A stretch of DNA of 64,000 nt from Elusimicrobiota bacterium (lineage in GTDB: Bacteria > Elusimicrobiota > Elusimicrobia > JACQPE01), in the NCBI GenBank assembly GCA_016180815.1, contig JACPAN010000020.1, positions 18,731 through 82,730 of the forward strand, written 5' to 3'. Numbering within the stretch: position 1 is the stretch's first letter; each line of letters begins with the position of its first letter. Positions 1-23,435 of the stretch are shown here, one piece after another. The notes below the pieces were generated by a model that was not told the DNA's origin, did not search any database, and was given only the letters and a program-made list of their open reading frames with translations. The position numbers and the translations under genes are program-made.

Positions 1-3000
1 ATTTCCGGCCAGGCCCGCGTCAGGATTAAGGGTGTGACCGAGGGCTTGGGCGGCGAGGAAATCGGCACCGCTGACAAGCATTATTTCATCGTCTATGACG
101 TGGATTATTTGGCCAATGTGCATTCGCAAGCGCGCTTGGGCGCTGAAATGCGCGACCCTAATTACTTTTCATTGATTTCTCCGGATTTTATGGGCACGTT
201 AAATATCGGATTGCCCCCGCCCGACGGCGCCGGGAAAACTGTTTCTTATGTGACGACGATTGGCGAGTTCTCCGACAAAATAACCGTTGTTTCGACGGGG
301 ACGCCGTTAACCATCGAACCGGTGCAGGGTACCCTGAACAACCCGGTGGGCGTGCTCCAAATCTCGGTGGACAAAGCCGATGCCTTGTGGCGCGGGTTGA
401 TCGTTAAGGCTACGGGCACGGCTTCGGCCAACGGCGTATTCAGCGAAGAAGTGACCATGGTCAAAATTTGGCGCGACAATACCACAGCCGGGAATCCTGG
501 ACAGCTCGATGCGGCCGTTGATGTGATGATCGGCACCGGAACATTCGGCTCCGCCGGCCAGCAGTTGGAAGCGCCGGTTCGATTTACCACGGCCGAGCGC
601 CTGAGCGTGTCCCCCGCCATTTATTTCATCAGCTATGACATCTCGGATAATGCCGCGCCCCTGGACCCGGCCACTAAAGCGGCCCGGACCGTGGGCGTTG
701 TCTTGGATGCGGCTTCCTATCCCCAAAATGTCAACGGCGTTGATGACCCGGCCACGGATTTGATCTCGGAGCCTAATATTTTGGCTTCGACGCAGCCTTT
801 TACCGGCAATCTTCATAAATTGAAGGCTTCTCCGAGAAACGTTACCGTGATCCCCGCGCCGCTGTTTACCTCGGCTTCAGCCCGGTTCAATCCCAATAAA
901 CAATTGACCGCGGCCATCGGCGGTTCCAATGACACGATTTCGCTGGCCAATACCAATGATTTGCCGAGCTGCGGCATTTTAAAAATCGAAAGCGAAATCA
1001 TCGCGTATTCCGGGATTACGCCCACCACGATCAACAATGTCGAGCGCGGACTTTACGGTTCGGAGGGCGTGACCCATGCGTCCACCACCGTGGTCGAACC
1101 TTACAGCGCCGTGTTCGAGGCGCCGACATTGACCCAGGCCATCACCGACCCAACCGATTCGGTTGTGCGCCTCAGCGACGCCCGAGGGTTCGCGCCTTGC
1201 GGCTATGCCACGATTTCCAAGGACGACACCACGGAAATGATTTATTACTCGAGCGTTTCCTTGGCCGCGAACATGCTTTCCGGCGTGATCCGGGGCCAAT
1301 TCAGCAAGGCGGCGTCCAACCATGAGGTCGGCGAGCGCGTCGCTCCGGCCGTGACTCAAGGCGACGCCAAAATGGCGGTGCTGAAATTCACGGCCGTGTC
1401 TTCGGGCTTTGAAGTGCCGTGGAGCCAGGCTGTGATCGGGCGCACGGATATCGCGGGCGCTAATGACGCGGATTCGGATGTTTCCGAGGTTGCCATTTAC
1501 AAGGATAACGGCGACGGGGTTTTAAACAGAAATCCCGACGGCACCATCGCTCCGTTTACAGACACGGTGCTGGGAACGGCCGAATTCGGCACGCTGTTAT
1601 CCGGCCAGGCGACGGTGAATTTATCCGAGGGCGGCCAGGCATTCACCGTGATCGGCACCAATATATCCACGTATTTCATGGTTCTTTCCATCGATCCCGC
1701 GTCCCAATTTTCACACGACTCCGCGCTCAATAAAAACGAAGTCATCGGCGCCGAATTAAAAGACATGATTTTCGACGGCGATCACGGCGAAACCCTCGTT
1801 GTCCGGCCGATTACCCCCAATTACGTGATCCGCCCGACCGTGGACGAATTAATCGTCGATGATGCGGCGTTGAATCCCGCGGAAGAAGTGCAAACCAAGA
1901 AAAACGTCCCCATGATGAGGCTGACCGTCAACGCCAATCACAATACCGTAATTCTGGACTCGTTGACGCTGGACCTGCTTTCCGAAGCCGGAGGCGTGGG
2001 CTCGGATGTGTTCGCGGTCAAGATTTGGCAGAACGTGGGCGCGGACGCTTTCGACGCCGAAGACACCACGCAAACCGCTCAAGGTATTTTCCCCAATTTA
2101 TTATCCCAGGGCGGCGACACGTTTATCGAAGGCCGTTCCTTGGTCAAATTCAAAACGCCGCTGGTAGTCGGGGTGACGCCGGTGAAGCTGGTCATCACCT
2201 ACGATGTTTCGGAATTCGCTTCGCCCGGGCATCGCATCGGCGTTCAATTGTCATCGGCCGCCATGGCGGGCGCCCAAATTCCCGACGCGGTCAAGGCCGC
2301 CCCCAATCGCAGCTTCCCTATGAAAAGCGGATTTATGACCATCAAGGACGTGGCCAGCAAGGTGACGTTGGGCGTTTTTGACCAAACCAACGAGCTCTTG
2401 GCCCTAGGAGGCGTGTTCCAGGCTCAAACCATGGCCTCGGTGTTGCGCTTCAACATGAAAACGGATATCGCCAATGCCACTTGGCAGACCTTGGTCGTGG
2501 AGCGCACCGGCTCCTCATCCGATCCCCTAAGGCCGTTCGGCTCCAATCGCGATGTGCGCTTTGTCAAGATTTATAAAGACATCAACGTCAACGATGTCCT
2601 GGATACCAACGATATCGTGGTTTCCTCAAGCAAAACCACCGGCTTGGCGAGCGTTTCCTCGTTCACGGCCGTGCCCTTTAACCTGCCCGTCTCTTCAACG
2701 CAGAATTGGCCCACCAGCGGCTTGGTCATGGTCAGCGATTCCGAGTTGATGAAGTATTCCGACATTATTGTCGATATCGGGGCTTCGACCGGATCGCTGA
2801 GGATTATCGAGCGCGCCATGCGCTTAGGCGATGCCAATACCCCGTCCATTGCGCATTCCACGGGCACGTCGGTGGAAAAAGTGGACACGTTCGATCAATT
2901 AAATGAGAATGACCGGGTCCGGCAAGTGACGCTCACATTCCCGCAACTGCTGTCCCCTGTGCCGCAAGTATATTTCCTGGCTTATGATATCGGCGAAGCC

Positions 3001-5412
3001 GCGTACACCGGCGACAGTTTGGGCGTCAAAATCAATGCCGTGACCTCCATCGGTTTGGCCCAGCCCAATTTGGCCCAGCCAAAAACCGTGGACGCGGTGA
3101 TCAACAATAATATCACCCGTTCCGCGCCTTTGGGCCAAGGAGCCACGGTTTCTTATCCTTATGAAACAGGCAAGGTTACCATCAACGCCGTGAGCATGAA
3201 AATTACCGGCTTGTCCTTGGCGCCGGCCGGAGCCAAACCCGGCCTGACCTCCGTGCCTTTGCTGCAATTGAACCTTTCCGTGTCCAAGAATTATATGGAT
3301 ATCGGCGCGATTCGCATCAATCAGACAGGCACCGTGGATGAGCCCGGCAGAAGCGTCAACCCTGGCCTGGATCAAGTCGAAGGCCGCGGCGATTTTTCTC
3401 AAATCGCGGTTTATCTGGACACGGACGGCAATCAAACCTTCACCACATCCGGCGATTTATTGATCGGCAAGGTCAAATATTGGGCCGATGCCTCCAGCAC
3501 CACCGCCAATCCTGATTTCACCAATGGTTTGGCGGTGATCGATTTCAATGTTGAAGGCAAACCCAGGCTGCGGGTCACGCCGATTGCCAGCACGATTTTC
3601 TTGGTCGGCGATATCGGGGCCTTTGACAGCGCGGGCTGCCCTACCATCGGCGCTCAGGCCGCCGGCGGCGCGCCGGGCAGTTGCAAAGCATCAGGGCATC
3701 AGGTCGGCGTCCGGATCGATTCCATCGCCGATCTTTTGGTGCCCGGCCGTTCCGGCAATATTTCGGTGGTAGAAGACCCGTTCGAGAAACTGCCTTACAA
3801 TTCAGGGTTGACCTTGATCAGCCCTGAAGTGATCCCGCCCGTCAACCTGATCCCGGCTATTCTCATCGCGTCGGATGGGTACCCGGCCTACGCCAAACTC
3901 GATTCTTCGGGGACCGTTATTCTCGACAGCCAAGGATTTCCGGAGCCGGATTTATCCCGCCGCGTTGTTGACGGCGGCGAACCCTTGATTGATTTGGACA
4001 CGGATAACAAAGGCGACAACTTTGATTTCAACCGTGACGGTAAAAGGCAAGAACTTGATTTAGACGGCGACGGCTTGCCGGACACGGATATTGACGGCGA
4101 CACCCTATTGGATGTGGATTACAACGATGACGGCGTGCCCGATACCGCGGAAAGCGTGGGCGGCACGCCGCAGATATTCTTAAGGCGCTTGGACGGGTCC
4201 AAAGTGCCCATGCTCGATCAAGGCTTCGCCAAAACCGCTTGGGCCGGGAAAACAACCGAGGTGTATGGGTCTTGGCCGAAGGTCAGCAATGTGACTCAGT
4301 ACCAGGCGGCCTTGGGCCGGGATTACAAGAATCCCAATTTGTTGCGCACGTGGGACTCGGCGCAGACGGACAATAAGAAAACCTTGACCGGCATTACCTT
4401 GGCCGTGCCCAAGGTGACTCGTTTATTGGAGGAAATCAATCAATCAGCCAGCACCATTACCGTGGTGTCCACGGACGGTTTCTTGGAGAACGGACGTCTT
4501 TATATCGGCAGCGAAATCATTGAAATATCCAAGAAACTGGGCAACGATCAATTCGCGGTTAAAACGCGCGGCGTGGGCGGCTCCATTGCCCAGAATCATT
4601 TGCCGGGAGAATTAGTCAGCGATCAAGCGTTCCTTTATTCCGTGCGCGCCGAGTCCACCCAGGGAGGCGCGTTCATTCCTTCCTTAGCCGGGCGCCCGTT
4701 GTTGATGCTGAGAACCGATCCCACGGCGCCGACTGTTCCCGGATCTCCTAAAGCCGAATTGGCTTCAGGCCAAAGCGCTTCTTCATTCCCCTTATCGTGG
4801 GAGGCCAGCGATGATCCCGAGAGCCGCGCCTTCTATTACGAAATCCAGGAGCGCATGGACACTAATCCCGTTTGGAAAACCATCGCTTTGATCCCCGCGC
4901 GGCGCACCGGTGGCGCCATCAATAATCGCATAACCGTCGGGGATCCGAGTTCAAAGACTTTGGGCTATGCCGCGGCCGACGCGCCGCGCGAATCCGGCCA
5001 CTTTTACACCTATCGCGTCAGGGCTTACAACACCGCGGGCGTGGCCTCGTCTTGGTCGGGCGAATCTGCGGCCGCTTCATCGGGGCAGATCAGCGAAGTG
5101 GTCAAAAACGTGTCCAATTACCCCAACCCGGTGGACACCCGCCAAGGCGGATTCACCACCGTCACTTATATGCTGGGCGCGGATTCCGACGTCACCATCA
5201 CGATTTACGATCTCCTGGGCTATAAGGTGCGGGAATGGCATTTCAACCCGGGTGATGCCGCCGGCGGCCGCTCCGGCCCCAATTTCCTCAAATGGTTCGG
5301 GGACACGGACGGCGGCGAAAAAGTTTCCAAGGGCGGTTATATCGTCAAAATCGAAGTGAAATCCTCCAAGGGCTCTCAGACGATCATCAGAAAGGTGGGC
5401 ATTATCCATTGA
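1..5412 (+). CDS. Giant secreted repeat protein with C-terminal FlgD-Ig/PNPV domain (5' end outside window)
   Basis: The frame is open from base 1, so at least 1803 residues are present and the N-terminus lies upstream. At least six beta-rich repeats end in a pattern such as YFISYDIS, YFLAYDIG or VITYDVSE. Most contain a preceding VKIYKD / VAIYKDNGDG segment whose D-x-N-x-D-G spacing suggests a calcium loop. A second repeat type, with an IGSEIIEIS...RG...H..G core, occurs four times, near nt 970, 1200, 2720 and 4500. Nt 3985-4150 encode a dense DxDxDG thrombospondin-type-3-like stretch. A fibronectin-III-like part follows, and the last 100 residues start with NYPNPV and match the FlgD-Ig / type A sorting-like fold found at the end of exported surface proteins. 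It probably acts outside the cell. Its place directly before the motor genes suggests that it is a cargo, adhesin or substrate of that machine, which is inference. Confidence 0.7.
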   Translation: MSGQARVRIKGVTEGLGGEEIGTADKHYFIVYDVDYLANVHSQARLGAEMRDPNYFSLISPDFMGTLNIGLPPPDGAGKTVSYVTTIGEFSDKITVVSTGTPLTIEPVQGTLNNPVGVLQISVDKADALWRGLIVKATGTASANGVFSEEVTMVKIWRDNTTAGNPGQLDAAVDVMIGTGTFGSAGQQLEAPVRFTTAERLSVSPAIYFISYDISDNAAPLDPATKAARTVGVVLDAASYPQNVNGVDDPATDLISEPNILASTQPFTGNLHKLKASPRNVTVIPAPLFTSASARFNPNKQLTAAIGGSNDTISLANTNDLPSCGILKIESEIIAYSGITPTTINNVERGLYGSEGVTHASTTVVEPYSAVFEAPTLTQAITDPTDSVVRLSDARGFAPCGYATISKDDTTEMIYYSSVSLAANMLSGVIRGQFSKAASNHEVGERVAPAVTQGDAKMAVLKFTAVSSGFEVPWSQAVIGRTDIAGANDADSDVSEVAIYKDNGDGVLNRNPDGTIAPFTDTVLGTAEFGTLLSGQATVNLSEGGQAFTVIGTNISTYFMVLSIDPASQFSHDSALNKNEVIGAELKDMIFDGDHGETLVVRPITPNYVIRPTVDELIVDDAALNPAEEVQTKKNVPMMRLTVNANHNTVILDSLTLDLLSEAGGVGSDVFAVKIWQNVGADAFDAEDTTQTAQGIFPNLLSQGGDTFIEGRSLVKFKTPLVVGVTPVKLVITYDVSEFASPGHRIGVQLSSAAMAGAQIPDAVKAAPNRSFPMKSGFMTIKDVASKVTLGVFDQTNELLALGGVFQAQTMASVLRFNMKTDIANATWQTLVVERTGSSSDPLRPFGSNRDVRFVKIYKDINVNDVLDTNDIVVSSSKTTGLASVSSFTAVPFNLPVSSTQNWPTSGLVMVSDSELMKYSDIIVDIGASTGSLRIIERAMRLGDANTPSIAHSTGTSVEKVDTFDQLNENDRVRQVTLTFPQLLSPVPQVYFLAYDIGEAAYTGDSLGVKINAVTSIGLAQPNLAQPKTVDAVINNNITRSAPLGQGATVSYPYETGKVTINAVSMKITGLSLAPAGAKPGLTSVPLLQLNLSVSKNYMDIGAIRINQTGTVDEPGRSVNPGLDQVEGRGDFSQIAVYLDTDGNQTFTTSGDLLIGKVKYWADASSTTANPDFTNGLAVIDFNVEGKPRLRVTPIASTIFLVGDIGAFDSAGCPTIGAQAAGGAPGSCKASGHQVGVRIDSIADLLVPGRSGNISVVEDPFEKLPYNSGLTLISPEVIPPVNLIPAILIASDGYPAYAKLDSSGTVILDSQGFPEPDLSRRVVDGGEPLIDLDTDNKGDNFDFNRDGKRQELDLDGDGLPDTDIDGDTLLDVDYNDDGVPDTAESVGGTPQIFLRRLDGSKVPMLDQGFAKTAWAGKTTEVYGSWPKVSNVTQYQAALGRDYKNPNLLRTWDSAQTDNKKTLTGITLAVPKVTRLLEEINQSASTITVVSTDGFLENGRLYIGSEIIEISKKLGNDQFAVKTRGVGGSIAQNHLPGELVSDQAFLYSVRAESTQGGAFIPSLAGRPLLMLRTDPTAPTVPGSPKAELASGQSASSFPLSWEASDDPESRAFYYEIQERMDTNPVWKTIALIPARRTGGAINNRITVGDPSSKTLGYAAADAPRESGHFYTYRVRAYNTAGVASSWSGESAAASSGQISEVVKNVSNYPNPVDTRQGGFTTVTYMLGADSDVTITIYDLLGYKVREWHFNPGDAAGGRSGPNFLKWFGDTDGGEKVSKGGYIVKIEVKSSKGSQTIIRKVGIIH

Positions 5413-5481
5413 TTGTTGCTGATGACTTGGGCCTTGCGCCGCCGAAGGAGGAGCCCTACACTTAGGAGGGAGAACTCATTG

Positions 5482-7203
5482 GTGAGCCGTTATTTACCGT
5501 CGGGAAATAAGTTTAAGCGGTTCGGCCGCGATATTTTTATTTTATCGATGTGCCTGGCCTCATTCGCGGCCGCGGCCGCGGCCATTGAATTAGGCGGCAG
5601 CACGATCCTCGAGGTTTCCGCCCGTCTGTCCCGTGAAATGAAAGACCGCATCCAGGTGCACCTGGATAAAATTTTCGGCTACGGCAAAAGCGAAGTGTTC
5701 GTGCACGTGGACATCGGGTTTTCCAAGGAGGTCAAAGGCGATTTTGAGAAAACCCTCAAAGCGTATCTTTCGGGCGAGATCAATCGCGCCGCCATGCAGG
5801 GCGCCTCGCCTCAACAGTCGCAGGGAGGGGGTTACCAGTGGTTATTTCCGGGCCTTTCCGCGGAAGGCGGCTCCGCCGGCGCCGGGCAATCCCAATCTTA
5901 TATTTTGCCCGGCTTCACCATGCAGGGTTTCGGCGGCGGCACGCCGCCTGCGGCCGCGCCTCAGGGGGGAGGCGGCGGGCCGCAAATGATGCCCGGGCCG
6001 GGCATGCCGTTCGCGGACCCGAATTTCCTTTATGCCATCGGTCTTGAAATCAAGCGTATTTTCGTCAAGGTGGCGCTGGATTATTCCCTGCCCAGCGACG
6101 CTGAAACCAAGGTGCAGGCGCTGTTGGGGGCTTTGCTGGAGGTCGACCCCAATCGCGGCGACCGGATCGTGATCACGCGTTTCAATATGCCGAATCCTAT
6201 TTTTGAGCTGTTCAAGGATTCCAAGTTTTTAAGCCTTGTCCTGCAATGGGCCACCATCGCGGGGTTGATCCTGGCCGGGTTGATTTTGATCAGCCTGTTG
6301 GTCGTGGTGACCATGCGCAGCTTATTCAACATTCTGGGCCAGTGGGTCGAGGCGTTTTTGGCCATGCGCCATCGGACCATGGAATTGAAATTTGACGTGC
6401 CTCCCTGGCTGCGCGAGGCCTTGCCCGCCATTCGTTTCAGGAAGGAAGAAGGTTCGCCGGATGAATTGGACGCCCAGGGGGCTCCGAAAATGATCGAAGC
6501 CCAAACCGCCGAAGGGCCGGCGGGTGATTTGACGATCAATATTCCGCCTGAGCGGGCCACGGAGCTTTATCATTTGATCGGCAAGGAGAATCCCCAGCAT
6601 GTGGCCATGGTGGTGGCCAAGCTGGCGCCGGCGACGCGGGCCGCTTTTTTGTCGTCCTTGCCGCCGGATCGCCTGGCCCAAGTGTTTTCCGCTTTGGGTC
6701 AGCCCCAATACGTGGAGCGCGACGTGCTGCTGCGCTTGAAAGAAGAGCTTGAGCACCGCATCGTGGGCGTGGTCGGCGGAGAGACCGAGGTTGTGCGCAC
6801 ATTGGAAAGCATGGCGCTGGGGTTCAAAATGAAGCTGCTGAAAAATCTCGAGACGCAGAACGCGGTTTTATTTCGCTCGGTCCGCAAAAGAATTTTGTTA
6901 TTCGAAGACCTGATGCATGTCGGCGACCAGGAATTGAACGTTCTTTTATCCAAGGTGCCGATCCAGGAATTGACCATGGCCATTGCCGACGGCTTGACGT
7001 CTCCGGCCTTGAAAGAAAAAATCATCCGGGCGCTGCCGCGAAAAACAGCCGAAACCCTGACCGAGCTCCTGAGCATGACCGCCAAACCGCCCGAGGAGAA
7101 AATTTTCGAGGCCCAGGATAAAATTTTAAGAATCGCCCAAAAAATGATCGTGGACGGAACCATGCATCATCCCTTGGCCGAGGCCAGCCTGGAGGGGAAG
7201 TAG
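5482..7203 (+). CDS. FliF-like ring domain fused to FliG (motor protein 1)
   Basis: A 573-residue protein. A signal/TM segment (about residues 17-40, ending in AAAAAAIELGG) leads to two stretches like the FliF ring-building motif 3: IQVHLDKIFGYG...VFVHVDI near 57, and IKRIFVKVALDY...RGDRIVI at 190-230. Between them lies a long Gly/Pro-rich insert, as in the FliF beta-collar. A second TM segment (about 250-275) precedes a cytoplasmic FliG-like region (350-567) with the middle-domain VVGG turn and the C-terminal RKRILLFEDL motif and armadillo-like helices. In flagella, FliF forms the MS ring and FliG the torque-receiving rotor. Here one chain could do both. The start is GTG 5482 (or TTG 5479) after an AGGAGGGAG ribosome site; the frame is open back to 5413. 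motA follows after 3 nt. The FliF N-terminal ring motifs are absent. Confidence 0.82.
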   Translation: MSRYLPSGNKFKRFGRDIFILSMCLASFAAAAAAIELGGSTILEVSARLSREMKDRIQVHLDKIFGYGKSEVFVHVDIGFSKEVKGDFEKTLKAYLSGEINRAAMQGASPQQSQGGGYQWLFPGLSAEGGSAGAGQSQSYILPGFTMQGFGGGTPPAAAPQGGGGGPQMMPGPGMPFADPNFLYAIGLEIKRIFVKVALDYSLPSDAETKVQALLGALLEVDPNRGDRIVITRFNMPNPIFELFKDSKFLSLVLQWATIAGLILAGLILISLLVVVTMRSLFNILGQWVEAFLAMRHRTMELKFDVPPWLREALPAIRFRKEEGSPDELDAQGAPKMIEAQTAEGPAGDLTINIPPERATELYHLIGKENPQHVAMVVAKLAPATRAAFLSSLPPDRLAQVFSALGQPQYVERDVLLRLKEELEHRIVGVVGGETEVVRTLESMALGFKMKLLKNLETQNAVLFRSVRKRILLFEDLMHVGDQELNVLLSKVPIQELTMAIADGLTSPALKEKIIRALPRKTAETLTELLSMTAKPPEEKIFEAQDKILRIAQKMIVDGTMHHPLAEASLEGK

Positions 7204-7206: not shown

Positions 7207-8010
7207 ATGGATTGGACGACGTTAATCGGGCTGATATCAGGCATCGCGGTGGTGGTTTATGGGCTTCTGGAAACGCAAAGCGCCCACGCGTTCTTAAACA
7301 TTCACGGTTTGATTCTGGTGGTGGGGGGAACAATAGCCGCCACCTTTATTAACACGCCGTTTTCGTTGATCGGCGACGCCTTGCGCTCCCTGCGATTTTT
7401 ATTTTTAAAACCCAAGGGCGTGGCCCCAAGCGAAGCGATCCGGACCATCGTGTCCTTGGCCGAGAAGGCGCGGAGGATGGGTAATTTGTCCATTGAAAAC
7501 GATGGACAGGGCGTGGGCGACGGTTTCCTTCAGGCCTCCATCGACGTCTGCCTGGCGACGTCCGATGAGAAGCTCTCGCGGGAAATCCTTTCCCTTCGCG
7601 TGCGTCAGGCTAAATCGCGCCATACCGAGGTGGCGAATGTGTTTCGCACCATGTCCATTCTGTTCCCCATGTTCGGCCTGGTCGGTACGCTCATCGGCAT
7701 CGTGACCGTCTTGAAAAACATTTCCAATCCCAAAAACGTGGGCCCGGCCATGGCCGTGGCCTTATCCACGGCTTTTTTCGGGATTCTGCTGGCCAATATG
7801 GTTTGCGTTCCCGTGGCCGGAAAACTTAGGCTGCGCGCCATCGAAGAAGCCTTGAGCCAGGAAATTTTCATCGAAGGCGTGCTGAAGATTTTTTTCAGCC
7901 CGATGATTCCTTCGCAGATCGGCCTTTATCTTGAATCGTATATGGCCGGGCGTTCGAAGGGGTCTGCGGCGGGAGCGCCTGCGGTCGAAGGAGCCGCAAA
8001 AACCGCATGA
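7207..8010 (+). CDS. motA: MotA-family stator protein 1
   Basis: A 267-residue inner-membrane protein with four predicted TM helices, the normal size for MotA/PomA. The third and fourth helices carry the family signature FPMFGLVGTLIGIVTVL and the ALSTAFFGILLANMVCVPVAGKL segment. These contain the prolines that line the ion path. The cytoplasmic loop (about 60-150) is the part that touches FliG in flagellar motors. The gene starts 3 nt after the FliF-FliG fusion and overlaps motB by 4 nt (ATGA), so stator and rotor are co-transcribed. The TolQ/ExbB family is a distant alternative, but length and loop size favour MotA. The stator-rotor pairing is inferred from the operon. Confidence 0.9.
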   Translation: MDWTTLIGLISGIAVVVYGLLETQSAHAFLNIHGLILVVGGTIAATFINTPFSLIGDALRSLRFLFLKPKGVAPSEAIRTIVSLAEKARRMGNLSIENDGQGVGDGFLQASIDVCLATSDEKLSREILSLRVRQAKSRHTEVANVFRTMSILFPMFGLVGTLIGIVTVLKNISNPKNVGPAMAVALSTAFFGILLANMVCVPVAGKLRLRAIEEALSQEIFIEGVLKIFFSPMIPSQIGLYLESYMAGRSKGSAAGAPAVEGAAKTA

Positions 8011-9814: not shown

Positions 9815-9826
9815 CAAACTAGAGCG

Positions 9827-9901
9827 ACAAAGGCAATCCCGGCCGCAAGGCCGGGGGCGCAAAGCCGAGGTTCTCCGTCGGGAGAAGGCCGGGCTGCCGA
9901 A
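9827..9901 (+). ncRNA. c-di-GMP-I (GEMM) riboswitch
   Basis: The sequence shows the GEMM-I elements in order: AAAGGCAA, a CCCGGCC-GCAA-GGCCGGG hairpin with a GNRA tetraloop, the conserved GCGCAAAGCC, a second hairpin GTTCTCC-GTCG-GGAGAA that supplies the receptor side, and the closing GGCCGGGCTGCCGA. This class binds cyclic di-GMP, the signal for the motile/sessile switch. It begins about 6 nt after the predicted transcription start and is followed 48 nt later by an intrinsic terminator, so control of transcription is likely. Confidence 0.85.
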
Positions 9902-9905
9902 GACA

Positions 9906-10049
9906 ATGAATACATTAATAGTCGCGTATTTAATCGCGTTGATTTTGGCCGTCGAGCTAAGCTCGACGGTTTATTTTTTAAGCCTAAAGAGTTTGAAAAA
10001 AGCAGATTTCGGGCATCGAGGGCCGAAAGGCCTTCTGAGCAAACGATAA
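9906..10049 (+). CDS. Possible small membrane peptide (47 aa) after the riboswitch
   Basis: An ATG 5 nt after the riboswitch opens a frame of 47 codons whose first 20 residues are hydrophobic (LIVAYLIALILAVELSSTV). No clear ribosome site precedes it, and the middle of the frame coincides with a strong terminator hairpin. It may be a leader peptide, a small membrane protein or just non-coding leader. Confidence 0.25.
   Translation: MNTLIVAYLIALILAVELSSTVYFLSLKSLKKADFGHRGPKGLLSKR
9949..9979 (+). terminator. Intrinsic terminator downstream of GEMM riboswitch
   Basis: A perfect 9-bp stem CCGTCGAGC / GCTCGACGG with a TAA loop is followed by TTTATTTTTTA. It lies between the riboswitch and the barrel gene at 10220, where premature termination could be controlled by ligand binding. 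Confidence 0.75.
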
Positions 10050-11990: not shown

Positions 11991-12001
11991 TGGACGCGGA
12001 A

Positions 12002-15172: not shown

Positions 15173-18100
15173 GTGGACGAACTCGACAAGCTCGAGAAAG
15201 AAAAAGACGAGGAACTGCTGAATTTGGCGGCTCGCATCGAACAGATTTCAAAGCTGGCCGAAGCCAGAAAAACGTTGTTTCAACGTGAGGCCGAGCAGTT
15301 AAAAGAGCTGTTCAACCGTTCGGTCGACAACCTCGAAACCACGCTCAAGCTTTCCCAAACCAAGCTGGCCGCGGAAATTGAAAACGCCAATAAAAATTTG
15401 ACCGCTCTTGAGGCCCGTCTTCAGGAAATCGAGCAGGAAGCCAGCCCTGCGGTCGTCGAGAAGAAGCTCAAGGCGCTGGAGGATGACATCGTCCGCCAGG
15501 GCGCCGGCCATCCCTCGGCGAGTTTGGAATCGGCCGACGACTCCCTGAGCGGGCTCCATCGGCAAATCGAGGAGAGTATCCGCCAGAAAAGCGGACAAAT
15601 CGGACGCCTTAAGGAGAATTTAAGCCTCAAGGAAAAAGAACTCGGCCAATTGACGTCGCGCGTGGAGGCCGAGAAGTCGGCCTTGGTGGCCAAATATAAA
15701 ACAGCCCTGGATAAAAAGGAGCGCGCGGCGCGGGAAGCCATCCGGTTGCTCCAAGCGGAATTCTCCCGCCGACGCCTGCGCATGCAAGAGGTCACGAAAG
15801 TGGTGGAAGCCAGGGAGGTCTGGCTGGAAGAGGAAAAATCCCGGCGCCTGGAGGCTTTAAAAGGGCTGATGGGTGAGATGGAAAGCAGGGGCCAGGCCCT
15901 TCAGCAGAAGATGTTCGAGGAAAAAACGTTTTGGGAAGGCCAGATTAAAGCCGCGGAACAAGAAATCAACGCCTTGAGCATGCGTCTGGTGACCGGGCAG
16001 GCGGAATTCGCCGCGATTAAAACGAAAGGGGAGGAGGAACTCAAAAAACTCGAGTTCGAATTAAACGCCGAGTACACGCAGCGCGCCGAGGCCGTGGGGG
16101 CCGAGGTCAAATCCTTGCGCGGGGAGCTCGACGAAGCGAATACGCGCATCACCCAGCTGATCGGCAAGCTTCGCCGTTACGAGGAGGCCAATAAAAAGGA
16201 AGTCGCGGACCTGGAGGCGTTGGCTGCTAAGCGCCATGGCGACACCGCTCAGGAGATCAAGCGCCGCGAGGGCCGCTTGGCTGTCCTACGCGAAGAGCAT
16301 CAAAAGCTGCTGGAAGCCAAAACGAAGGAGCTCGACGTCTTGCGCTCTGAATACGAAGCCAAGGTGTTGACGCCCACGCTTCTGGCCAAGAAAAAAGGCG
16401 TCGAGGAAATCGAAGCCAGAAAGAAAGAGTGGGAAAAGAAGCTTTTTGACCTGGAAGAGAGCCATCGGGCCGAACGTCTGCAAATGGATACGGCCATCCG
16501 CAACTGCCATGATCAAATCCGCGCGATTGAAGAGAAGTTGAGCCTTGAGGCGCGGTCCCATCAAGAGCGGATGAAAGAGTTGGCCGCCAAAAAAGACGAA
16601 ATGCTCGCTCCTCGCGCGGCCCGGTTGGGAGAGCTGGAGAAAACCATCGAGCTGACCGCCGTAAAGTTTAAGGATGAAATCGCGGCTTTGGACGAGCGAA
16701 AGGCGAATATCCATCTGGAAGCGGATCATATGCGCGCGGCGTTTGAAGCCACCACCGAGGAGCACCGCCGGGAGCTTCTTTTCGCTATCGAGAATTTAAG
16801 GGCTCAGCTTGAGGCCCAGCAATCCCGCAGCGTCAAGGAAAAGGGCCAGTGGACCGACGCGCTGGAGACCAGCCGCAGCCAAGTGCGGCGGCTTGAAAAA
16901 GACCTCGAGGCGATATCCACCGCCCATGCCCAGGAGCTTCGGTCCCGCGAAGATGAAATCAGCGCCTCGCGCGCCACCGACGAGGAAAAAATCCGCTCGT
17001 TGGAATCGCTGTTGACGCAAATGGTCGCTAAATCCAAAGAGGAGATTAAAAATAAGGAGACGGAAATAGTCCGGGCCGAAGGCGCCGGCCGGCGGCTGAT
17101 GGAAAACCTCCGCAGGAAGCGCGAGGCCGAGGAGTCGCGGCTGGAGGCCCGCCGGGTGGAGCTGTTGTCCGCGATCAACGAGCATGCCGAGTCCTTTGCC
17201 AAGGAGCGCAGCCAATTAACACAGGAAGCCGACGAGGTCCAGCAAAAGCTGTTGAAAGTTGAAAAAGTGCTCGAGGAGCAGACGCAGCGCTGGCAGGCCG
17301 TGTTCACCCAGTTGGAGGAAAAGCGCAGCCGGGAAATCGGTCCTCTGGAGGCGCGTTTGAGGGAATTGGAATCGCAACGAAGCGATTTCGAAGCGGCTTC
17401 GACAAACAGCCACGACCTCTGGGCCTCCAGGATCAAAGAGATGCGCGATGATTTATCCCGGCGCCAATCCGAGTGGACGGAGGCTTGGCAAACGCGCAAA
17501 AAAGAGCTGACGGATGAAACCTCGCGGCTGGAGGCGCGGCTGGCGGCTTTGCGCAGCCAGCACCGCAGCCAGCTCGATACTTTGGGCGCGGAGCGCGCCA
17601 GGAAGGAAACCGATCTTCAAGAAAAGGAGCGGTCCTTGGAGGAGCTTTCCGGAACGCTCGCCGCCAAGCGTCAAGCGGCTGAAACGGGATTGAAGGAAGA
17701 ACAGGTTCGCTATACGCAAGCCGTTGAGAAAGCCAAGGCCGAAATCGAGCAGCTTCAAATGCAGATCGCGGCCGTCGACGCGGCCAAGGAAAAGGAGCTG
17801 GCTGCGTTGTCGAATGAATTGATCGGATTCGAGCAGACCCACCGCCGCCAAATCGAAACGTTACAGGAGCGTTTCACCCGCGACCGCCAAACGTTGGAAT
17901 CTTCGCTCAAATCCCAGACTCAGACCGGTGAAGACGAAATCGCGCAGATGGAATCCCATATTGAAAATTTAACAGTCCAAATTAAGGATCGTTCCATGGA
18001 GCTGGAGGTGTTGAGGAGCCAGCAGGAAATCGAATCCGCGGAGATCAGCCGCCGCAAGAGAAAAGTCGTGGCTGATTTGCGCACCCACCGCGCGGAATTG

Positions 18101-18697
18101 GCTCAGGAGTTAAAGCAGGTCCGGCGCTCTTATCAGGAGAGGGTCAAGGAGAAGGATCATGAAATTTATTTGGCGCGTCTGAAAGTCGAGCTGCGTTCCA
18201 AGCGCCTGGAGGAGATTCTATCGGCGAAGCGCCAGGAGCTCGAGCGCATGCGCGCAGGCTGGGCCGGCCGCGCCGAACAAACGCTTGATCACCTGAAGAC
18301 GAAAATCGACGAATTGTCCGCGGCCCGCCGGGCGAGGGAGGAGGAACTTAAATCGTTCGACGCTAAAAGCGGCCAACTGCGCGAGAATCTTTCCGAGCTG
18401 CGCGCCGGCGCGCAGCGTCCGGGAGCGTCTACTTCTTGGGAGGAAAAGGAGATCGAGCGCATGCGCGTCCGCGCCAAACAACAGATCGAGTATTTCCGGG
18501 TGCGCATGGAGGAGCTTTTGAAAACACGGGAGAATGAGAAGGCCCGGTTATTGGAGGCCGCGGAAAAAGTGGAGCCTATCAGCCGGGAGGCGTCCATGAC
18601 GTTGACGGATTTTATTCTTGTTTGGGAGCGGGAAGTGCGCCGGATGGCCACGCTCATAAAAGGCCTTGAAGAATCTTCGTTTTGGAGACAACATTAA
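15173..18697 (+). CDS. Very long coiled-coil protein (1174 aa)
   Basis: The GTG start comes directly after the previous stop codon, with GGAG 9 nt upstream. Almost the whole protein is one charged, heptad-repeating coiled coil with short breaks, like SMC or myosin rods. There is no ATPase motif, no hinge and no membrane helix. A straight coiled coil of this length would span well over 100 nm. It could be a cytoplasmic filament, track or spacer for the motor, as is thought for other bacterial coiled-coil cytoskeletal proteins. That role is inference from the operon. Confidence 0.6.
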   Translation: MDELDKLEKEKDEELLNLAARIEQISKLAEARKTLFQREAEQLKELFNRSVDNLETTLKLSQTKLAAEIENANKNLTALEARLQEIEQEASPAVVEKKLKALEDDIVRQGAGHPSASLESADDSLSGLHRQIEESIRQKSGQIGRLKENLSLKEKELGQLTSRVEAEKSALVAKYKTALDKKERAAREAIRLLQAEFSRRRLRMQEVTKVVEAREVWLEEEKSRRLEALKGLMGEMESRGQALQQKMFEEKTFWEGQIKAAEQEINALSMRLVTGQAEFAAIKTKGEEELKKLEFELNAEYTQRAEAVGAEVKSLRGELDEANTRITQLIGKLRRYEEANKKEVADLEALAAKRHGDTAQEIKRREGRLAVLREEHQKLLEAKTKELDVLRSEYEAKVLTPTLLAKKKGVEEIEARKKEWEKKLFDLEESHRAERLQMDTAIRNCHDQIRAIEEKLSLEARSHQERMKELAAKKDEMLAPRAARLGELEKTIELTAVKFKDEIAALDERKANIHLEADHMRAAFEATTEEHRRELLFAIENLRAQLEAQQSRSVKEKGQWTDALETSRSQVRRLEKDLEAISTAHAQELRSREDEISASRATDEEKIRSLESLLTQMVAKSKEEIKNKETEIVRAEGAGRRLMENLRRKREAEESRLEARRVELLSAINEHAESFAKERSQLTQEADEVQQKLLKVEKVLEEQTQRWQAVFTQLEEKRSREIGPLEARLRELESQRSDFEAASTNSHDLWASRIKEMRDDLSRRQSEWTEAWQTRKKELTDETSRLEARLAALRSQHRSQLDTLGAERARKETDLQEKERSLEELSGTLAAKRQAAETGLKEEQVRYTQAVEKAKAEIEQLQMQIAAVDAAKEKELAALSNELIGFEQTHRRQIETLQERFTRDRQTLESSLKSQTQTGEDEIAQMESHIENLTVQIKDRSMELEVLRSQQEIESAEISRRKRKVVADLRTHRAELAQELKQVRRSYQERVKEKDHEIYLARLKVELRSKRLEEILSAKRQELERMRAGWAGRAEQTLDHLKTKIDELSAARRAREEELKSFDAKSGQLRENLSELRAGAQRPGASTSWEEKEIERMRVRAKQQIEYFRVRMEELLKTRENEKARLLEAAEKVEPISREASMTLTDFILVWEREVRRMATLIKGLEESSFWRQH

Positions 18698-18701
18698 AGG
18701 T

Positions 18702-20915
18702 ATGGCTGAACAAACGCCGCCGTCTTTGCCGCCGAAGCCCCCGGTCGGGGGTCCCGGGCGCCCGCCTGCGCCGCCTCCGGGCAATCTGCGCCCGCCTGCG
18801 CCGCCGGCGTCTGCGCCCAAGGGGCCTCCTCCCCCGTCCCGTTCGTTCGGCCCGGGGATCGGCCGCCCCAATCCTCCCGCCTCAAGCCCCGCGACACCGG
18901 GGCCTGCGGATCTCCAGTCTCAGGACTTGTTGCGCAAGAATGAAGATTTGGAGCGCGCGAAATCCGCCATGGAGGAGAGAGTCGCCAAACTTGAAAAAGC
19001 TTTGCTCGAGGAGCGGGAGAAGTCCATGACCGCCAACTTAAAGAGCCACGAGGAGCGTTCGGTCGGCTTAAGAGTGGAGGCCAGCCTTCGCGAGATTCAG
19101 GAGAAGTTGAAGCGCGATCAGCGGGAGCGCGAGCTGGAAATGACCAAAGCCAAGCTGGAGGCCCAAATCAAGGATCTTGAAAAGAAGGTCGTCCATGAGC
19201 GCGAGACGTGGGTTGAGGCGCTGAAATCCCAGATGTCCAAGCGCGACCTGGAAGACCGCGCCGTGGAGGAGCGTTTCAACGCGAAATTAAAGGAGATCGA
19301 ACAGCGTTACGCCCAGGAGCGTTCCCGCATCGCCAGCAAGCTGGAGGAGAAAAACCGCGAGATCGAAGATTTGAAAAAACAGGTCTTGGTTAAAGAAGAG
19401 ACGGCCAAGGGCGCGTCTCAAAAAGCCGAGACCCAGGTTCAGGCCATGGAGGAATTAAGGCGGCGTTTTGAAAAAGCCGAGGACGATTACGAGCGGACTC
19501 AACGGCGAGCCGTTGAAATGGACAGCAAGCTGCGGCGCGCCGAAGATATGGAACGGGAAGTGGGCATCGTGCGCGACGAGTTGCGTTCGGCGCGCGATCG
19601 CTTGGCCCAGGCGCAGCGCATGATCGAGCAAAGAAACGCGCTCTTGGGCCGCGCCAAGGCCGCGCTTTCCGGATTGGCCCGCGACCGGGCCGAGGCCCAG
19701 CGCCTCAAAGAAGAATTTAGAACAGCCAAGAGCCGCCTGGCCTCGGTTGTGGAAGCGTACCGGCGCCTTCAAGCCGGCAAGCAGGCCCTAGAACGCGCGG
19801 CCCAAGAGCAGCTGCGTCAAAAGGAGGCCGATCTGACGCGGCTGGAGGAGGCCCGCCGGCAGGAATTCGAACGCCGCAGCCGGTTTGAGCTCGATTTAGC
19901 CCGGGCGGAAATGGAAAAGAGCCAACTGCTGCGCGAACGCTCTCAGCTTGAAGCGGATGTCATCAGGCTTAAGGCTGAGCTTAACAATGTCGGCCGCGCG
20001 CATTTGGAATTACCGGGGGTTCTCCATCAGTTGAACGCCGCCAGGAAGGAAGCCGATGCCAAGGCCGCCGGCGTCATCAACATGGAAGAGGAAATCCGCA
20101 TGCTCAAAGCCTCCCAAGCCGAGATGGCGGCCCAGCGTGATCAATCGCTGAAGGACCTGGAGGCCGCCAAAAGAGAAGCCGAGTCCGCGCGCGCGGAGCT
20201 GCGCCGCTTAAGCGCCGCGGTCGGTGAAGCCAAACATTCTTCTCAGACCGAATTTGTTTTGGCTAAAAAAGATTTGGAAGCCGCCCAACGGGAATTGGTA
20301 AAAACCGCGGCCGAGCTGACGCAAACCAGAAGGGAGCTTGACGAAGCGCGTTCGCTCGGCAGCCGCCATATCGAGAGCAATGCCCAGATTTCCGGCCGCT
20401 ACGAGGAGGCCATGAGCGTGGTTGAGTCCGCTCGCAGGGAATTAGCCGCGGCCCGGGAGGCTCAGGCCAAGGCCTTGGAAGAGGCTAAAAATGCCCAAGC
20501 GCAAGCCCGCGTGTTTGAGGCTGAGTTGTTGGACTTGAGGGTGAAGTCGCAGCGCTTGGAACAGGATTTGGTCCGGACGCACCAGGATGAGCCTCAGCGC
20601 GTGCTCACGCTGGAGGCGGAATTAAAAAGCCTGCAGAAGGCGGCGGATCAAATCAAGCAGACTTACGAGGAAGAGATGCGGCGGGTGCAGAAGATTTTCG
20701 AAAGCCAATGCGCGGCTTATGAGAATAAAATTCGCGCCCTGGCCGCGCAGTTGACCCCGGATCAGGTCCGGCAAGCCACGCTCGAAGCCCGCACCGGTTC
20801 GACGATGGAACTTCCGGTCAAGCCCGTTGATCCGAGCAAGACCCAGCAGCTCAAAAGCACGGGCAAGGAAGGCGTGCTTGAGCGCACCATGAAATGGCTG
20901 TCCAAACCCGTATGA
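18702..20915 (+). CDS. Coiled-coil protein with Pro-rich N-terminus (737 aa)
   Basis: The first 75 residues are a Pro/Ala/Gly-rich disordered arm (PPKPPVGGPGRPPAPPPGN). The rest, from residue 80 to about 690, is a long coiled coil rich in Glu, Lys, Arg and Ala. A short C-terminal tail ends in LERTMKWLSKPV, a possible amphipathic helix. ATG 18702 was chosen over the in-frame upstream codon at 18666, which overlaps the preceding gene. The Pro-rich arm resembles that of the 352-aa coiled-coil protein at 8694, so the two may share a partner. It is followed by flbD. Confidence 0.6.
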   Translation: MAEQTPPSLPPKPPVGGPGRPPAPPPGNLRPPAPPASAPKGPPPPSRSFGPGIGRPNPPASSPATPGPADLQSQDLLRKNEDLERAKSAMEERVAKLEKALLEEREKSMTANLKSHEERSVGLRVEASLREIQEKLKRDQRERELEMTKAKLEAQIKDLEKKVVHERETWVEALKSQMSKRDLEDRAVEERFNAKLKEIEQRYAQERSRIASKLEEKNREIEDLKKQVLVKEETAKGASQKAETQVQAMEELRRRFEKAEDDYERTQRRAVEMDSKLRRAEDMEREVGIVRDELRSARDRLAQAQRMIEQRNALLGRAKAALSGLARDRAEAQRLKEEFRTAKSRLASVVEAYRRLQAGKQALERAAQEQLRQKEADLTRLEEARRQEFERRSRFELDLARAEMEKSQLLRERSQLEADVIRLKAELNNVGRAHLELPGVLHQLNAARKEADAKAAGVINMEEEIRMLKASQAEMAAQRDQSLKDLEAAKREAESARAELRRLSAAVGEAKHSSQTEFVLAKKDLEAAQRELVKTAAELTQTRRELDEARSLGSRHIESNAQISGRYEEAMSVVESARRELAAAREAQAKALEEAKNAQAQARVFEAELLDLRVKSQRLEQDLVRTHQDEPQRVLTLEAELKSLQKAADQIKQTYEEEMRRVQKIFESQCAAYENKIRALAAQLTPDQVRQATLEARTGSTMELPVKPVDPSKTQQLKSTGKEGVLERTMKWLSKPV

Positions 20916-20931
20916 GCGCGCCGAGGATTTG

Positions 20932-21159
20932 GTGATTATTTTGCACAAACTAAACGGCAAGGAGGTTTCGATCAACGCCGAATTGATCGAATCCATCGAA
21001 GCTTCGCCGGACACCGTGGTGACGCTGGTGACGGGCAATCGCTACATGGTCAGAGACAGCGTGGAAGAGGTGGTGGCTAAGGTCGTGGAGTTCAAGCGCC
21101 GCATCGTCGGCGCAACCGGCCGCGCGCCGCAGGACTGGCAGAATTTAAAGAAAGAGTAG
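20932..21159 (+). CDS. flbD: FlbD/SwrD-family flagellar protein
   Basis: A 75-residue protein that fits FlbD/SwrD along its length: LHKLNGKEVSINAELIES, SPDTVVTLVTGNRYMV and SVEEVVAKVVEFKR. In flagellate bacteria the gene sits just before motA/motB, and SwrD raises motor torque in Bacillus. Here it keeps the same place before a motA-motB pair. GTG 20932 with GAGG 5 nt upstream matches the usual family start; TTG 20929 is possible. The family is known almost only from flagellar loci, which makes it strong support for a motor origin of the cluster. Confidence 0.85.
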   Translation: MIILHKLNGKEVSINAELIESIEASPDTVVTLVTGNRYMVRDSVEEVVAKVVEFKRRIVGATGRAPQDWQNLKKE

Positions 21160-21197: not shown

Positions 21198-22004
21198 GTG
21201 GATATCGCGACAATTCTGGGCATCACCGTTTTTGCGGGCATGGTGATCGTAACCGTGCTGATCGCCGAGGGCGTGGCCGGGTTCAAGCCGTTCTTAAACG
21301 TCGAGGCGCTGTTCGTGGTGATGGGGGGAACGTTCTGCGCCTTGCTGGTCAATTATTCCATGAATCAGGTCTTGGGCGTGGGCCGCGTGTTGAAGAAAGT
21401 CTTGACCAGCACCGAAGACGAGGAGACCAGCGGGGAGGTGATTTCGACGTTCGTGCAGCTTTCTAGCAAAGCGAAAAAAGAGGGATTTCTTTCATTGGAA
21501 AACGATATTAAAAAGCTGACCAACGATTTCATGAAGCGCGGGCTGCAATTGGTCATCGACGGCGCGGACCAGGATTTTATCCGCAATATGCTGGAAACGG
21601 AATTGGGCTTCATCCGCGAGCGCCATAAGGTCGGGCAGGAGATTTTCAACGCCCTGGGCACGTATGCGCCGGCCTTCGGCATTATCGGGACGGTGCTGGG
21701 CATGATTTTGATGCTGAACTCCATCAGCGACGTGGAGGAGGTGCCCCGGCGCATGGCGTTGGCTTTGGCTGCGGCTTTTTTCGGCTTGGGCGCGGGGTAC
21801 CTGATTTTTTTGCCCATGGCCGGCAAACTGCGGCGGCGTTCGGAAGCGGAGCTTTTGGCCAAGGAAATCATTATCCGAGGGGTGCTTCTTTTGCAATCGG
21901 GCGTGGCTCCGAGCGTCATTGAGGCGAACTTGAAAGCTTACTTGGAACCGGCCCAGCGCATGTTGATTCGTTCAGCCGTGGCCAAGGGGGAGGCCCCCAA
22001 ATAA
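21198..22004 (+). CDS. motA: MotA-family stator protein 2
   Basis: A 268-residue, four-helix MotA protein with MGGTFCALLVNYS in the second helix, and TYAPAFGIIGTVLGMILML and LALAAAFFGLGAGYLIFLPMAGKL in the last two. The start is GTG, with a strong purine-rich ribosome site (GGAGGGAGGGGGA, 21177-21189). It differs clearly from the first MotA in sequence, so the two pairs are not recent copies. They may use different ions, loads or rotors. Confidence 0.9.
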   Translation: MDIATILGITVFAGMVIVTVLIAEGVAGFKPFLNVEALFVVMGGTFCALLVNYSMNQVLGVGRVLKKVLTSTEDEETSGEVISTFVQLSSKAKKEGFLSLENDIKKLTNDFMKRGLQLVIDGADQDFIRNMLETELGFIRERHKVGQEIFNALGTYAPAFGIIGTVLGMILMLNSISDVEEVPRRMALALAAAFFGLGAGYLIFLPMAGKLRRRSEAELLAKEIIIRGVLLLQSGVAPSVIEANLKAYLEPAQRMLIRSAVAKGEAPK

Positions 22005-22005
22005 A

Positions 22006-22656
22006 ATGCCTTTGAAACCCAGGAACCTCATCGATGAGAGCGACCCCAGGGTGTCTCAAATCGGCCACCCGGCGCCTCCCTGGCTGATCAATTATGCGGA
22101 TTTGATGACGGAGATGGTTTGTTTTTTCGTCATCCTGTACGCTCTTTCAGCCGCTTTGAATAAAAATGTGCAGCAAGCCAAAACCCAGTTGGAAGAGATG
22201 ATGAAGAAAAGCGAAATTTCGGGCGAAGTGAAAATGACCAAAGACGGCTTGCATATCACGTTCGAAGAGAAGGGGGAGATGTCGTTTTTCCAGTCCGGAA
22301 AAGCGGAACTGACACCCGGAATGACCAAATTGTTGACCCAGGTGTCTCCGTCCGTCCGGGAACTCGCGCAGAAATTCGATATTTTAGTGGAGGGGCACAC
22401 GGACAATGTGCCTATTCACACCGGCCGCTACAGTTCCAATTGGGAACTCTCCACCGCGCGCGCCACAGAGGTCGTCAGGTATTTAATCGCCAGCCAGCAG
22501 TTTCCGCCCGAACGCTTGGCGGCCGTGGGCTACGGGGAGTATAAACCGGTGGCTCTGAATGATCGGCCTGAGAATCGCGCCCGCAACCGCCGCGTGGTCT
22601 TTTTTGTGAAAACCGTGCCCACAAAATTCGAAGATCAAGGAGCGCAGGAACAATGA
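22006..22656 (+). CDS. motB: MotB-family stator protein 2
   Basis: A 216-residue protein with WLINYADLMTEMVCFFVILY, where the Asp in ADLMT is the ion-binding residue, and a C-terminal OmpA-like domain (VEGHTDNVPI, GYGEYKPVALN, RARNRRV). Its linker is shorter than in the first MotB. The ATG follows the motA stop by 1 nt, and its end overlaps the next gene by 4 nt. Confidence 0.9.
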   Translation: MPLKPRNLIDESDPRVSQIGHPAPPWLINYADLMTEMVCFFVILYALSAALNKNVQQAKTQLEEMMKKSEISGEVKMTKDGLHITFEEKGEMSFFQSGKAELTPGMTKLLTQVSPSVRELAQKFDILVEGHTDNVPIHTGRYSSNWELSTARATEVVRYLIASQQFPPERLAAVGYGEYKPVALNDRPENRARNRRVVFFVKTVPTKFEDQGAQEQ

Positions 22657-23435
22657 ATCGGGCCGTGATATTAATTGTTGCGGTTATTGGCGCTTTACCA
22701 GCGGTGTCCGCCGCCGAGGAAGTTATCATAAAGGAAAATTTAGCCGAGGAACGCGTGACGGACGTCATGCGCGCCAGAAAGCTGGTGGCTTCACGGAGTT
22801 TTATTTTGTTTAAAAGGCCCAAGTACGGTCATTTTCTTGAAGGCTATCTCACCGGTTTCGTCACCGATTATGACGATCGTCCCATCGAGGGCGTGGTGGT
22901 CCGGGCCTTGGTGACGGCCACGGAATCGGGTAAAAAGAAAGGCGAGGAAGATCTTTTGTTATCGGGCGAGTCGCTGGAGGAAGGGGGCGGGGAAAAAGTG
23001 CATGAATTTACCCCGCATTTTGAAGCCGGCATTTCGGACGCGGACGGCGTCTACCGCATCCATTTTTCCGTTCCCATCATCAAGCGCAAGGTCGATATCC
23101 GGGGCAAAATCATATACAACCCGGGTTGGAACCAGCAGCATGATGTTTTGGGCCAATCCTACGAGCCCCAGATGAAGGAGTCGCCGTTTAGGTTCTACTA
23201 TGATGAAAAAACGAAGGTGTTGGCCTTTGCCGAAGGCAGCCGCAAGGTGATCGTGCGCCCGGTCCGAAACGTCGCGGGTCCGGTTTCGCCGATCAAGCTC
23301 AAGGGTTCGGAAAAGCCGGAAACCGCCGAGCCTAAAGGCGGCAAGGCCGCGGAAAGATCCGCGCCCGGCGGCGCCAAACCCGTGGAACAGAAAGAAGAGG
23401 ACGATTTTTTTAAGACGTTCAACTTCGGCCCGTAA
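22653..23435 (+). CDS. Secreted protein of the motor operon (260 aa)
   Basis: No family is recognised with certainty. A signal peptide (AVILIVAVIGALPAVSAAEE) is followed by an Ig-like beta domain (about 70-175) containing LTGFVTDYDDRPIEGVVVRAL, which resembles carboxypeptidase-regulatory-like/CNA-B folds. The C-terminal 50 residues are Pro/Lys-rich and end in an acidic-aromatic tail. The gene overlaps motB by 4 nt (ATGA). It is therefore the last gene of the second motor operon and a candidate periplasmic or outer-membrane linker. Confidence 0.55.
   Translation: MNRAVILIVAVIGALPAVSAAEEVIIKENLAEERVTDVMRARKLVASRSFILFKRPKYGHFLEGYLTGFVTDYDDRPIEGVVVRALVTATESGKKKGEEDLLLSGESLEEGGGEKVHEFTPHFEAGISDADGVYRIHFSVPIIKRKVDIRGKIIYNPGWNQQHDVLGQSYEPQMKESPFRFYYDEKTKVLAFAEGSRKVIVRPVRNVAGPVSPIKLKGSEKPETAEPKGGKAAERSAPGGAKPVEQKEEDDFFKTFNFGP

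Follow-up and report, generated by a model that had tools for sequence, protein, structure and literature searches.

What would flagellar-type rotor and stator proteins do in a bacterium in whose genome none of the flagellar genes searched for was found? FliG together with MotA and MotB is treated as a signature of flagella, and a 64,000-nucleotide stretch of DNA from an Elusimicrobiota bacterium (GenBank assembly GCA_016180815.1, contig JACPAN010000020.1, positions 18,731 to 82,730, or G000:C20:18731-82730 in our numbering; the whole stretch is called the window below) raises this question directly. Its first 23,435 positions hold genes for FliF-FliG fusions and MotA/MotB stators next to genes for surface proteins. 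The genome measures 2.85 Mb in 39 contigs and is rated 99.5% complete and 1.11% contaminated. We propose, with a probability of about 0.5, that this cluster encodes a non-flagellar rotary envelope motor under cyclic di-GMP (c-di-GMP) control that moves surface adhesins and drives gliding. Taken by itself, the ion-driven, non-flagellar motor is very probable; movement at the surface by that motor we place slightly short of even odds.

All 14 protein genes between the contig start and window position 23435 lie on the + strand, as do all features of the cluster described below. They fall into two sets. The first comprises a giant open reading frame (ORF), fusion 1, MotA 1, MotB 1 and coiled coil 1, spaced by 0-3 nucleotides or overlapping shortly. 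The second, separated from the first by a 467-nucleotide leader, comprises porV, fusion 2, three coiled-coil-like proteins, FlbD, MotA 2, MotB 2 and an Ig-like protein. The reading frames are intact and the gene names are backed by Pfam and NCBIfam; the inventory given by the original prediction, made from the letters of this DNA (two FliF-FliG fusions, two MotA/MotB pairs, FlbD, a PorV-like barrel and four coiled-coil proteins on one strand), is all present.

That prediction had also seen no flagellar export, rod, hook, filament or FliM/FliN gene in the cluster, and for the four families searched the absence extends to the whole genome. Searches for FlhA (PF00771), FliM/FliN (PF01052), flagellin (PF00669) and rod/hook proteins (PF00460) gave no match genome-wide, with controls from E. 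coli, B. subtilis, C. vibrioides and T. maritima matching in each search. Nor do relatives that carry the motor regularly carry a flagellum: among 294 genomes of the phylum, FlhA occurs in 3 and FliG_C in 120, the latter spread over 60 of 90 genera. By family, FliG_C is found in 1 of 79 genomes of family f2, in none of the 76 of family f15 and in 119 of the 139 others. Two of the 120 genomes with FliG_C (G032, G214) are among the three with FlhA. G032 has FlhB, FliR, FliP and a hook-type protein; G245 has FliP and FliR; G214 has CheA-/CheB-type proteins and MotAB beside FlhA, and a full-length fusion gene on another contig. Part of the FlhA-bearing loci (L146-L148) could be mis-binned contigs, the stated contamination of these three genomes being 1-3%. 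All Elusimicrobiota genomes have been stated to lack flagella, and all isolates to be non-motile (PMC11257099). For flagella this is right for nearly all genomes; the searched text of the same paper makes no mention of 'FliG'. In three protein searches, with candidate lists capped at about 8000 entries, the matches listed were FliG-domain proteins, assigned to Elusimicrobia or Endomicrobia wherever their names give an organism, plus three that matched by TPR only; the fusions may be restricted to the phylum.

Fusion 1 (5413..7203, 596 residues) and fusion 2 (11867..13924, 685 residues, the conserved rotor candidate of the operon) each have two predicted membrane helices, and FliG_M and FliG_C exceed their Pfam cut-offs in both: FliG_C scores 58.3 bits and FliG_M 39.1 in fusion 1, against 93.1 and 46.3 in fusion 2, which adds TPR. 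All 39 members of the fusion 2 family alignment (A1) match both domains at E<=0.01. The fusions score 59.6 and 104 bits with the flagellar FliG equivalog TIGR00207, under its cut-off of 226.7. A profile of fusion 2 aligns with the structure 1LKV (T. maritima FliG) with 200 bits over 221 profile positions. The FliF part announced by the original prediction is recognisable in a narrower sense, as a weakly matching C-terminal periplasmic region and the second membrane helix; the rest of FliF was not recognised. YscJ_FliF_C (PF08345, cut-off 23.8) reaches 19.4 bits in fusion 1 and 25.1 in a further fusion on contig C8 of the same genome, gives no match in fusion 2 itself, and is found at E<=0.01 in 11 of the 39 A1 members. 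With an N-terminal profile of fusion 2, FliF accounted for all three PDB matches below E 1 (E 0.021, 0.2 and 0.27). The membrane helices of fusion 2 lie near residues 64-82 and at 265-283, and the FliG part follows the second one, matching the topology of FliF. A Salmonella FliF-FliG fusion-deletion mutant still rotates (PMC9389320), so that fusion does not forbid function.

Residues were counted in alignment rows picked by length and score (matches near the median length), FliG positions being mapped through the profile alignment to 1LKV; E. coli numbering is used for FliG D288 and R281 and for MotB Asp32. At the position equivalent to FliG D288, 63 of 64 rows have Glu. The EHPQ motif, by which flagellar FliG binds FliM, is replaced by E(E/D)PW in fusion 2 and most rows (Trp in 56 of 64), which fits the absence of FliM. 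The contact residues of E. coli FliG are named in PMC12505986. On the stator side, MotA 1 (7207..8010), MotB 1 (8007..8693, with plug and OmpA/peptidoglycan-binding domain), MotA 2 (21198..22004) and MotB 2 (22006..22656) are all over the Pfam cut-offs, with PF01618, PF13677 and OmpA domains in both pairs. The ion-binding Asp32 is kept in MotB 2 and throughout its alignment (42 of 42 rows). MotA and MotB come closest to the flagellar models MotA/MotP/MotD, with scores under the NCBIfam equivalog cut-offs (for MotA 2 the best model is MotP, 224.1 bits vs a cut-off of 394). A charge change at MotA R90 was dropped as evidence: MotA chains of known structure, as aligned, are also without Arg there. 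FlbD (20932..21159) matches PF06289 with 90.3 bits (cut-off 24.7).

The cluster is also conserved as a unit. A protein search with fusion 2 returned 108 matches, 105 of them with FliG domains; where a name gives the organism, it is always Elusimicrobia, Elusimicrobiota, Elusimicrobiales or Endomicrobiia. Scanning the contigs of named genomes yielded 71 loci, and the same gene order recurs among these relatives: porV, fliF::fliG::TPR, coiled coil, flbD, motA, motB and lipoprotein. Counting in a second cluster of the own genome at C8 (L007), a PorV-type match is present at 67 of 72 loci, coiled-coil-like protein 4 (cc4) at 59, FlbD at 48, MotA 2 at 48, MotB 2 at 44, the Ig-like protein at 37 and a match to the giant at 25; many of the 72 are cut by contig ends, and the PorV-type match of L007 is a 284-residue ORF in which Pfam sees TPR. 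Where the sequence continues for at least 6.5 kb past the fusion (43 loci), cc4 is present in 43 cases, MotA in 37, MotB in 33, FlbD in 32 and the Ig-like/lipoprotein in 32, MotB being counted too low where an overlapping frame was chosen. Chance clustering of the genes is ruled out by these synteny counts.

Paralogous clusters repeat the core of the arrangement. The cluster at C8 has a FliF-FliG fusion, MotA, two MotB-type proteins, CARDB, FecR and carboxypeptidase-regulatory-like proteins, and a surface protein that ends in a sorting tail above the threshold of TIGR04183 (26.9 bits vs 23). Six further paralogous clusters (L149, L150, L154-L157) all hold fusion, MotA and MotB; five of them match the barrel part of PorV and L149 its TPR part alone, and L154 includes a PNP-tailed protein of 2018 residues. 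In an approximate tree of FliG domains, two flagellar FliG proteins of Elusimicrobiota group with 1LKV (support 0.98, few outgroups) and the fusions fall into several further groups, with no resolved branching order between these and the flagellar one. A FliG_M-type domain (41.6 bits) was also seen in a 343-residue protein (L006:10380-11411, G000:C4) encoded between T2SSB-like and secretin genes in a type IV pilus/type II secretion operon.

These data bear on one alternative, that the cluster is the decaying remnant of a flagellar system. Such an origin would suit the succession FlbD-MotA-MotB, which is a flagellar-type gene order. It is contradicted by the intact frames, by a synteny common to many relatives, by the flagellar FliG group standing apart from the fusions (again at 0.98 with few outgroups) and by G214, which has a flagellar-type cluster in addition to its fusion gene on another contig. 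We regard a remnant as extremely improbable.

Is the conserved unit also regulated as one? In the leader that separates coiled coil 1 from porV, the region 9822-10214 holds tandem c-di-GMP-I aptamers that the original prediction did not include. Aptamer 1 (9822..9902, ending at 9901/9902) scores 52.2 bits with RF01051 (gathering 35) and 50.1 with RF03167 (gathering 59). The second, weak one (10142..10214) scores 29.9 bits vs the gathering value of 35, and 42.5 bits with our own model R1, and ends 5 nucleotides 5' of the porV ATG. Nineteen of the 71 named loci, picked for their upstream sequence, were given to Rfam, and all 19 carry, ahead of porV and in its orientation, a match to RF01051 or RF03167 that reaches the gathering score. 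Model R1, built from 17 aptamers (16 of relatives plus that of the window), gave 62 matches in the window and the 71 loci, all 5' of porV, or of the fusion where porV was uncalled; the weakest is at L076 (E 0.0038). Ten loci lack upstream sequence for this test. At least 250 nucleotides of upstream sequence are available at 61 loci, and 57 of these have an R1 aptamer, 16 being in the model by construction and 41 not. The same model had no match in 12 other loci, the paralogous clusters among them.

A start codon follows 1-9 nucleotides 3' of the aptamer at 53 of 57 loci (50 ATG, 3 GTG), and at 48 loci this codon shares its frame with the porV or fusion ORF as called. Because a separate ribosome-binding site would hardly fit into such a short spacing, the riboswitch likely controls translation. 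Transcription attenuation was rejected as the general mode: a terminator-like hairpin lies within 350 nucleotides after the aptamer at 11 of 57 loci, and the one in the window, a hairpin with T tail after aptamer 1 (9947..9981), is within chance (2 such hairpins in the region, both strands counted, vs 1.2 expected in shuffles). In 5 of the 17 aptamers (L069, L072, L089, L101, L062; alignment A3) A replaces the first G of GGCAAA, presumably the position that shifts GEMM-I switches towards 3',3'-cGAMP. Overall, riboswitch control of the cluster is highly likely. Together, conserved synteny, kept motor residues and a c-di-GMP riboswitch common to the relatives speak for an envelope machine that is real, regulated and driven by ions.

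An upstream c-di-GMP riboswitch would also suit a surface sensor, in which stator and FliG ring measure load or ion flow and signal it, with no propulsion. A riboswitch is, however, an input to expression and not a sensing output, and the operon genes of the window include no kinase or receptor domain. We consider a sensor improbable.

PorV (10220..11794) is an outer-membrane barrel of the PorV/PorQ family with C-terminal TPR (NF033709, 112.2 bits, cut-off 90). The Ig-like secreted protein (22653..23435) is present as described before and proves to belong to a lipoprotein family: its relatives have a lipobox Cys column that is nearly invariant in a 21-row alignment (A4; the window copy is non-Cys there) and a conserved C-terminal tail, of DLFKGFxFG type in relatives.

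The giant surface protein is there as well, although its ORF has no start in the window. The 1803 C-terminal residues (1..5412) are what the window holds; the frame is open to the contig start and runs from C20:2 to window position 5412, at least 8046 residues. No Pfam domain is over cut-off in the giant as it stands in the window. Its FlgD_ig/type IX-tail-like C-terminus does have the PNPV motif that had been pointed out, but at 19.3 bits it stays below the cut-off of 23 for TIGR04183 (type IX secretion type A sorting tail), and the end is merely sorting-domain-like. In eight other genomes the ORF before the operon was examined. It spans 14,446 codons from stop to stop in G108, continues past the outer end of the stretch examined, with at least 7942 to 11,479 residues, in G229, G219, G209, G262, G142 and G037, and in G248 long ORFs were seen, without a giant-type tail. 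A PNPV/PNPF motif and a common ending occur in all seven tails. Elusimicrobiota are already known to be rich in proteins of >5000 residues without assigned function (PMC11573180). At 24 of the 52 loci with enough upstream sequence, an ORF of giant type or with a PNP tail lies in the orientation of porV and no more than 3 kb ahead of it; the giant protein is a frequent partner and no fixed part of the cluster.

Would the motor move these proteins, or export them? It could energise secretion by taking the place of GldLM in powering a SprA/PorV-type (type IX-like) system, and then need not move adhesins at all. A PorV family member belongs to the operon, the barrel part recurs in five of the six paralogous clusters, and PNP-tailed surface proteins adjoin the motors. 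Contig C2 encodes a SprA-like protein of 1791 residues (L180:7530-12905) that matches TIGR04189 in three stretches with 148.8 bits (cut-off 200, not reached); metK and CoA-transferase genes lie near it. At E<=1e-3, 105 of 119 genomes have a SprA-like match, the 14 genomes without one all belonging to family f15, and GldM was found in 0 of 119 in a search where no control matched. A divergent type IX-like translocon thus seems common in the phylum, to judge from these matches. None of the 119 genomes is over the curated SprA cut-off, however, and SprA_N (PF14349) has no match in the own genome, in a search where again no control matched. In family f2, moreover, all 33 genomes tested have a SprA-like match and none has FliG_C. 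Because SprA-like genes persist there without the motor, a role in movement is favoured over a role as secretion drive, which we regard as unlikely though worth keeping in mind.

Alternatively, the motor may act inside the cell, turning or moving coiled-coil proteins to organise the shape of the cell, its pole or filaments; the surface genes would then be co-regulated and no more. The coiled-coil-like proteins (1, 8694..9752; 2, 13928..15172; 3, 15173..18697, 1174 residues; 4, 18666..20915, with a proline-rich N-terminus and conserved in the operon) have neither a signal-peptide-like segment nor a predicted membrane helix, and cc4 is the most constant downstream gene, present at every one of the 43 loci with long downstream sequence. 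The same operon also has PorV, the lipoprotein-family protein and a peptidoglycan-binding MotB, and a PorV match is kept even in five of six paralogous clusters, which points away from the cytoplasm; an internal role is in our judgement rather unlikely.

We therefore return to a motor that moves surface adhesins, and sketch how it may work. MotA and MotB, anchored on peptidoglycan through the OmpA domain of MotB, would pass ions inward; the flow would push a ring of FliG domains welded to an inner-membrane base by the FliF fusion, and the ring would rotate. Since FliM/FliN were not found, a switch of direction like that of flagella is probably missing. Motion would pass to the outer membrane through the periplasmic rotor part, the TPR domains, the lipoprotein and the PorV barrel; there, PNP-tailed surface proteins, the giant included, would be the load, and their movement would produce gliding. 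The coiled-coil proteins, predicted to be cytoplasmic, could serve as scaffold or track. On the aptamer set against the porV start codon, c-di-GMP, its presumed ligand, would set the amount of machine made, whether upwards or downwards. More boldly, and only tentatively, one may picture an ancient one-direction FliF-FliG/MotAB gliding machine that drags PorV-anchored fibres of up to ~14,000 residues and is switched by a c-di-GMP aptamer, a further, independent invention of ion-driven gliding from genuine flagellar rotor parts, in a phylum regarded as non-motile. Of what had been predicted here, the ion-driven envelope machine has gained support from synteny, motor residues and riboswitch; gliding or adhesin movement stays a suggestion.

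How does such a machine compare with known ones? With the flagellar motor it shares the FliG middle and C domains, a region weakly like the membrane and periplasmic C-part of FliF, MotA/MotB with the Asp for ion binding and a domain that binds peptidoglycan, and FlbD. It differs in that FliF and FliG are fused and TPR added, the N-terminal ring domains of FliF are not recognised, FliM/FliN, export, rod and filament families are not found in the genome, and EHPQ has become E(E/D)PW. Flavobacterium cells glide by means of the GldLM motor, which moves the adhesin SprB (PMC8986121). Both that gliding/type IX system and the present one would have an ion-driven inner-membrane motor moving PorV/SprA-related, PNP-tailed, very large surface proteins; here the motor parts are FliG-MotAB instead of GldLM. 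The machine may thus work like Flavobacterium gliding, but it is apparently not a member of that family, since the SprA-like protein and the tail of the window giant are below their cut-offs and GldM was not found (no control matched). The Agl-Glt system of Myxococcus (AglRQS) likewise uses a stator-type motor for gliding and a cytoplasmic coiled-coil partner. In a recent division of stators into a flagellar and a generic group, AglRS falls in the generic one (PMC12505986), whereas the stators described here match flagellar MotA/MotP models and are accompanied by FliG domains. Like other c-di-GMP-I (GEMM-I) riboswitches before motility and surface genes, the present ones are RF01051/RF03167 aptamers, sometimes in tandem; unlike those, they precede a non-flagellar motor operon and sit 1-9 nucleotides from the start codon at 53 of 57 loci. 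No similar system is described in the open-access PubMed Central papers listed by literature searches, judged by title, abstract or selected passages.

Several observations weigh against a motor that moves surface adhesins. The FliF similarity of fusion 2 is weak (E 0.02-0.27). The equivalent of FliG R281 is Gly in 62 of 64 rows, which alters the classical charge contact; we do not lean on this change, the flagellar FliG of G214 also being without Arg there. Six of the 43 loci with long downstream sequence (L079, L091, L093, L099, L104, L106) have no MotA or MotB after the fusion, and no FlbD or Ig-like match either, and the cc4 matches may partly reflect coiled-coil composition. The R1 aptamer was not found at 4 of the 61 testable loci (L096, L098, L106, L111). 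An upstream giant or PNP-tailed ORF exists at just 24 of 52 testable loci and has 148-262 residues in 5 of the 24. GldM, as said, is missing from all 119 genomes by a search without a matching control. Finally, cultured Elusimicrobiota are reported to be non-motile (PMC11257099), although they may belong to families without the motor.

In the remainder of the window, ordinary genes follow 3' of position 23435 (aminotransferase, RimP, NusA, IF-2), toxin-antitoxin-like genes of DarT type (PF14487) and AbiEii type (PF08843) occupy 44781-48078, and a fluoride riboswitch lies at 62186-62256 (56.9 bits).

Flagellar-type rotor and stator genes are thus kept together with surface-export-type genes and a c-di-GMP riboswitch in a phylum where FlhA occurs in 3 of 294 genomes. 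If the machine turns, it shows how a motor of flagellar type can find another use with no filament attached, and offers, with no FliM/FliN found, a simpler rotor for torque studies. It may also explain what some of the giant Elusimicrobiota proteins without assignment are for (PMC11573180), and would predict surface motility in bacteria that have been published as non-motile (PMC11257099).

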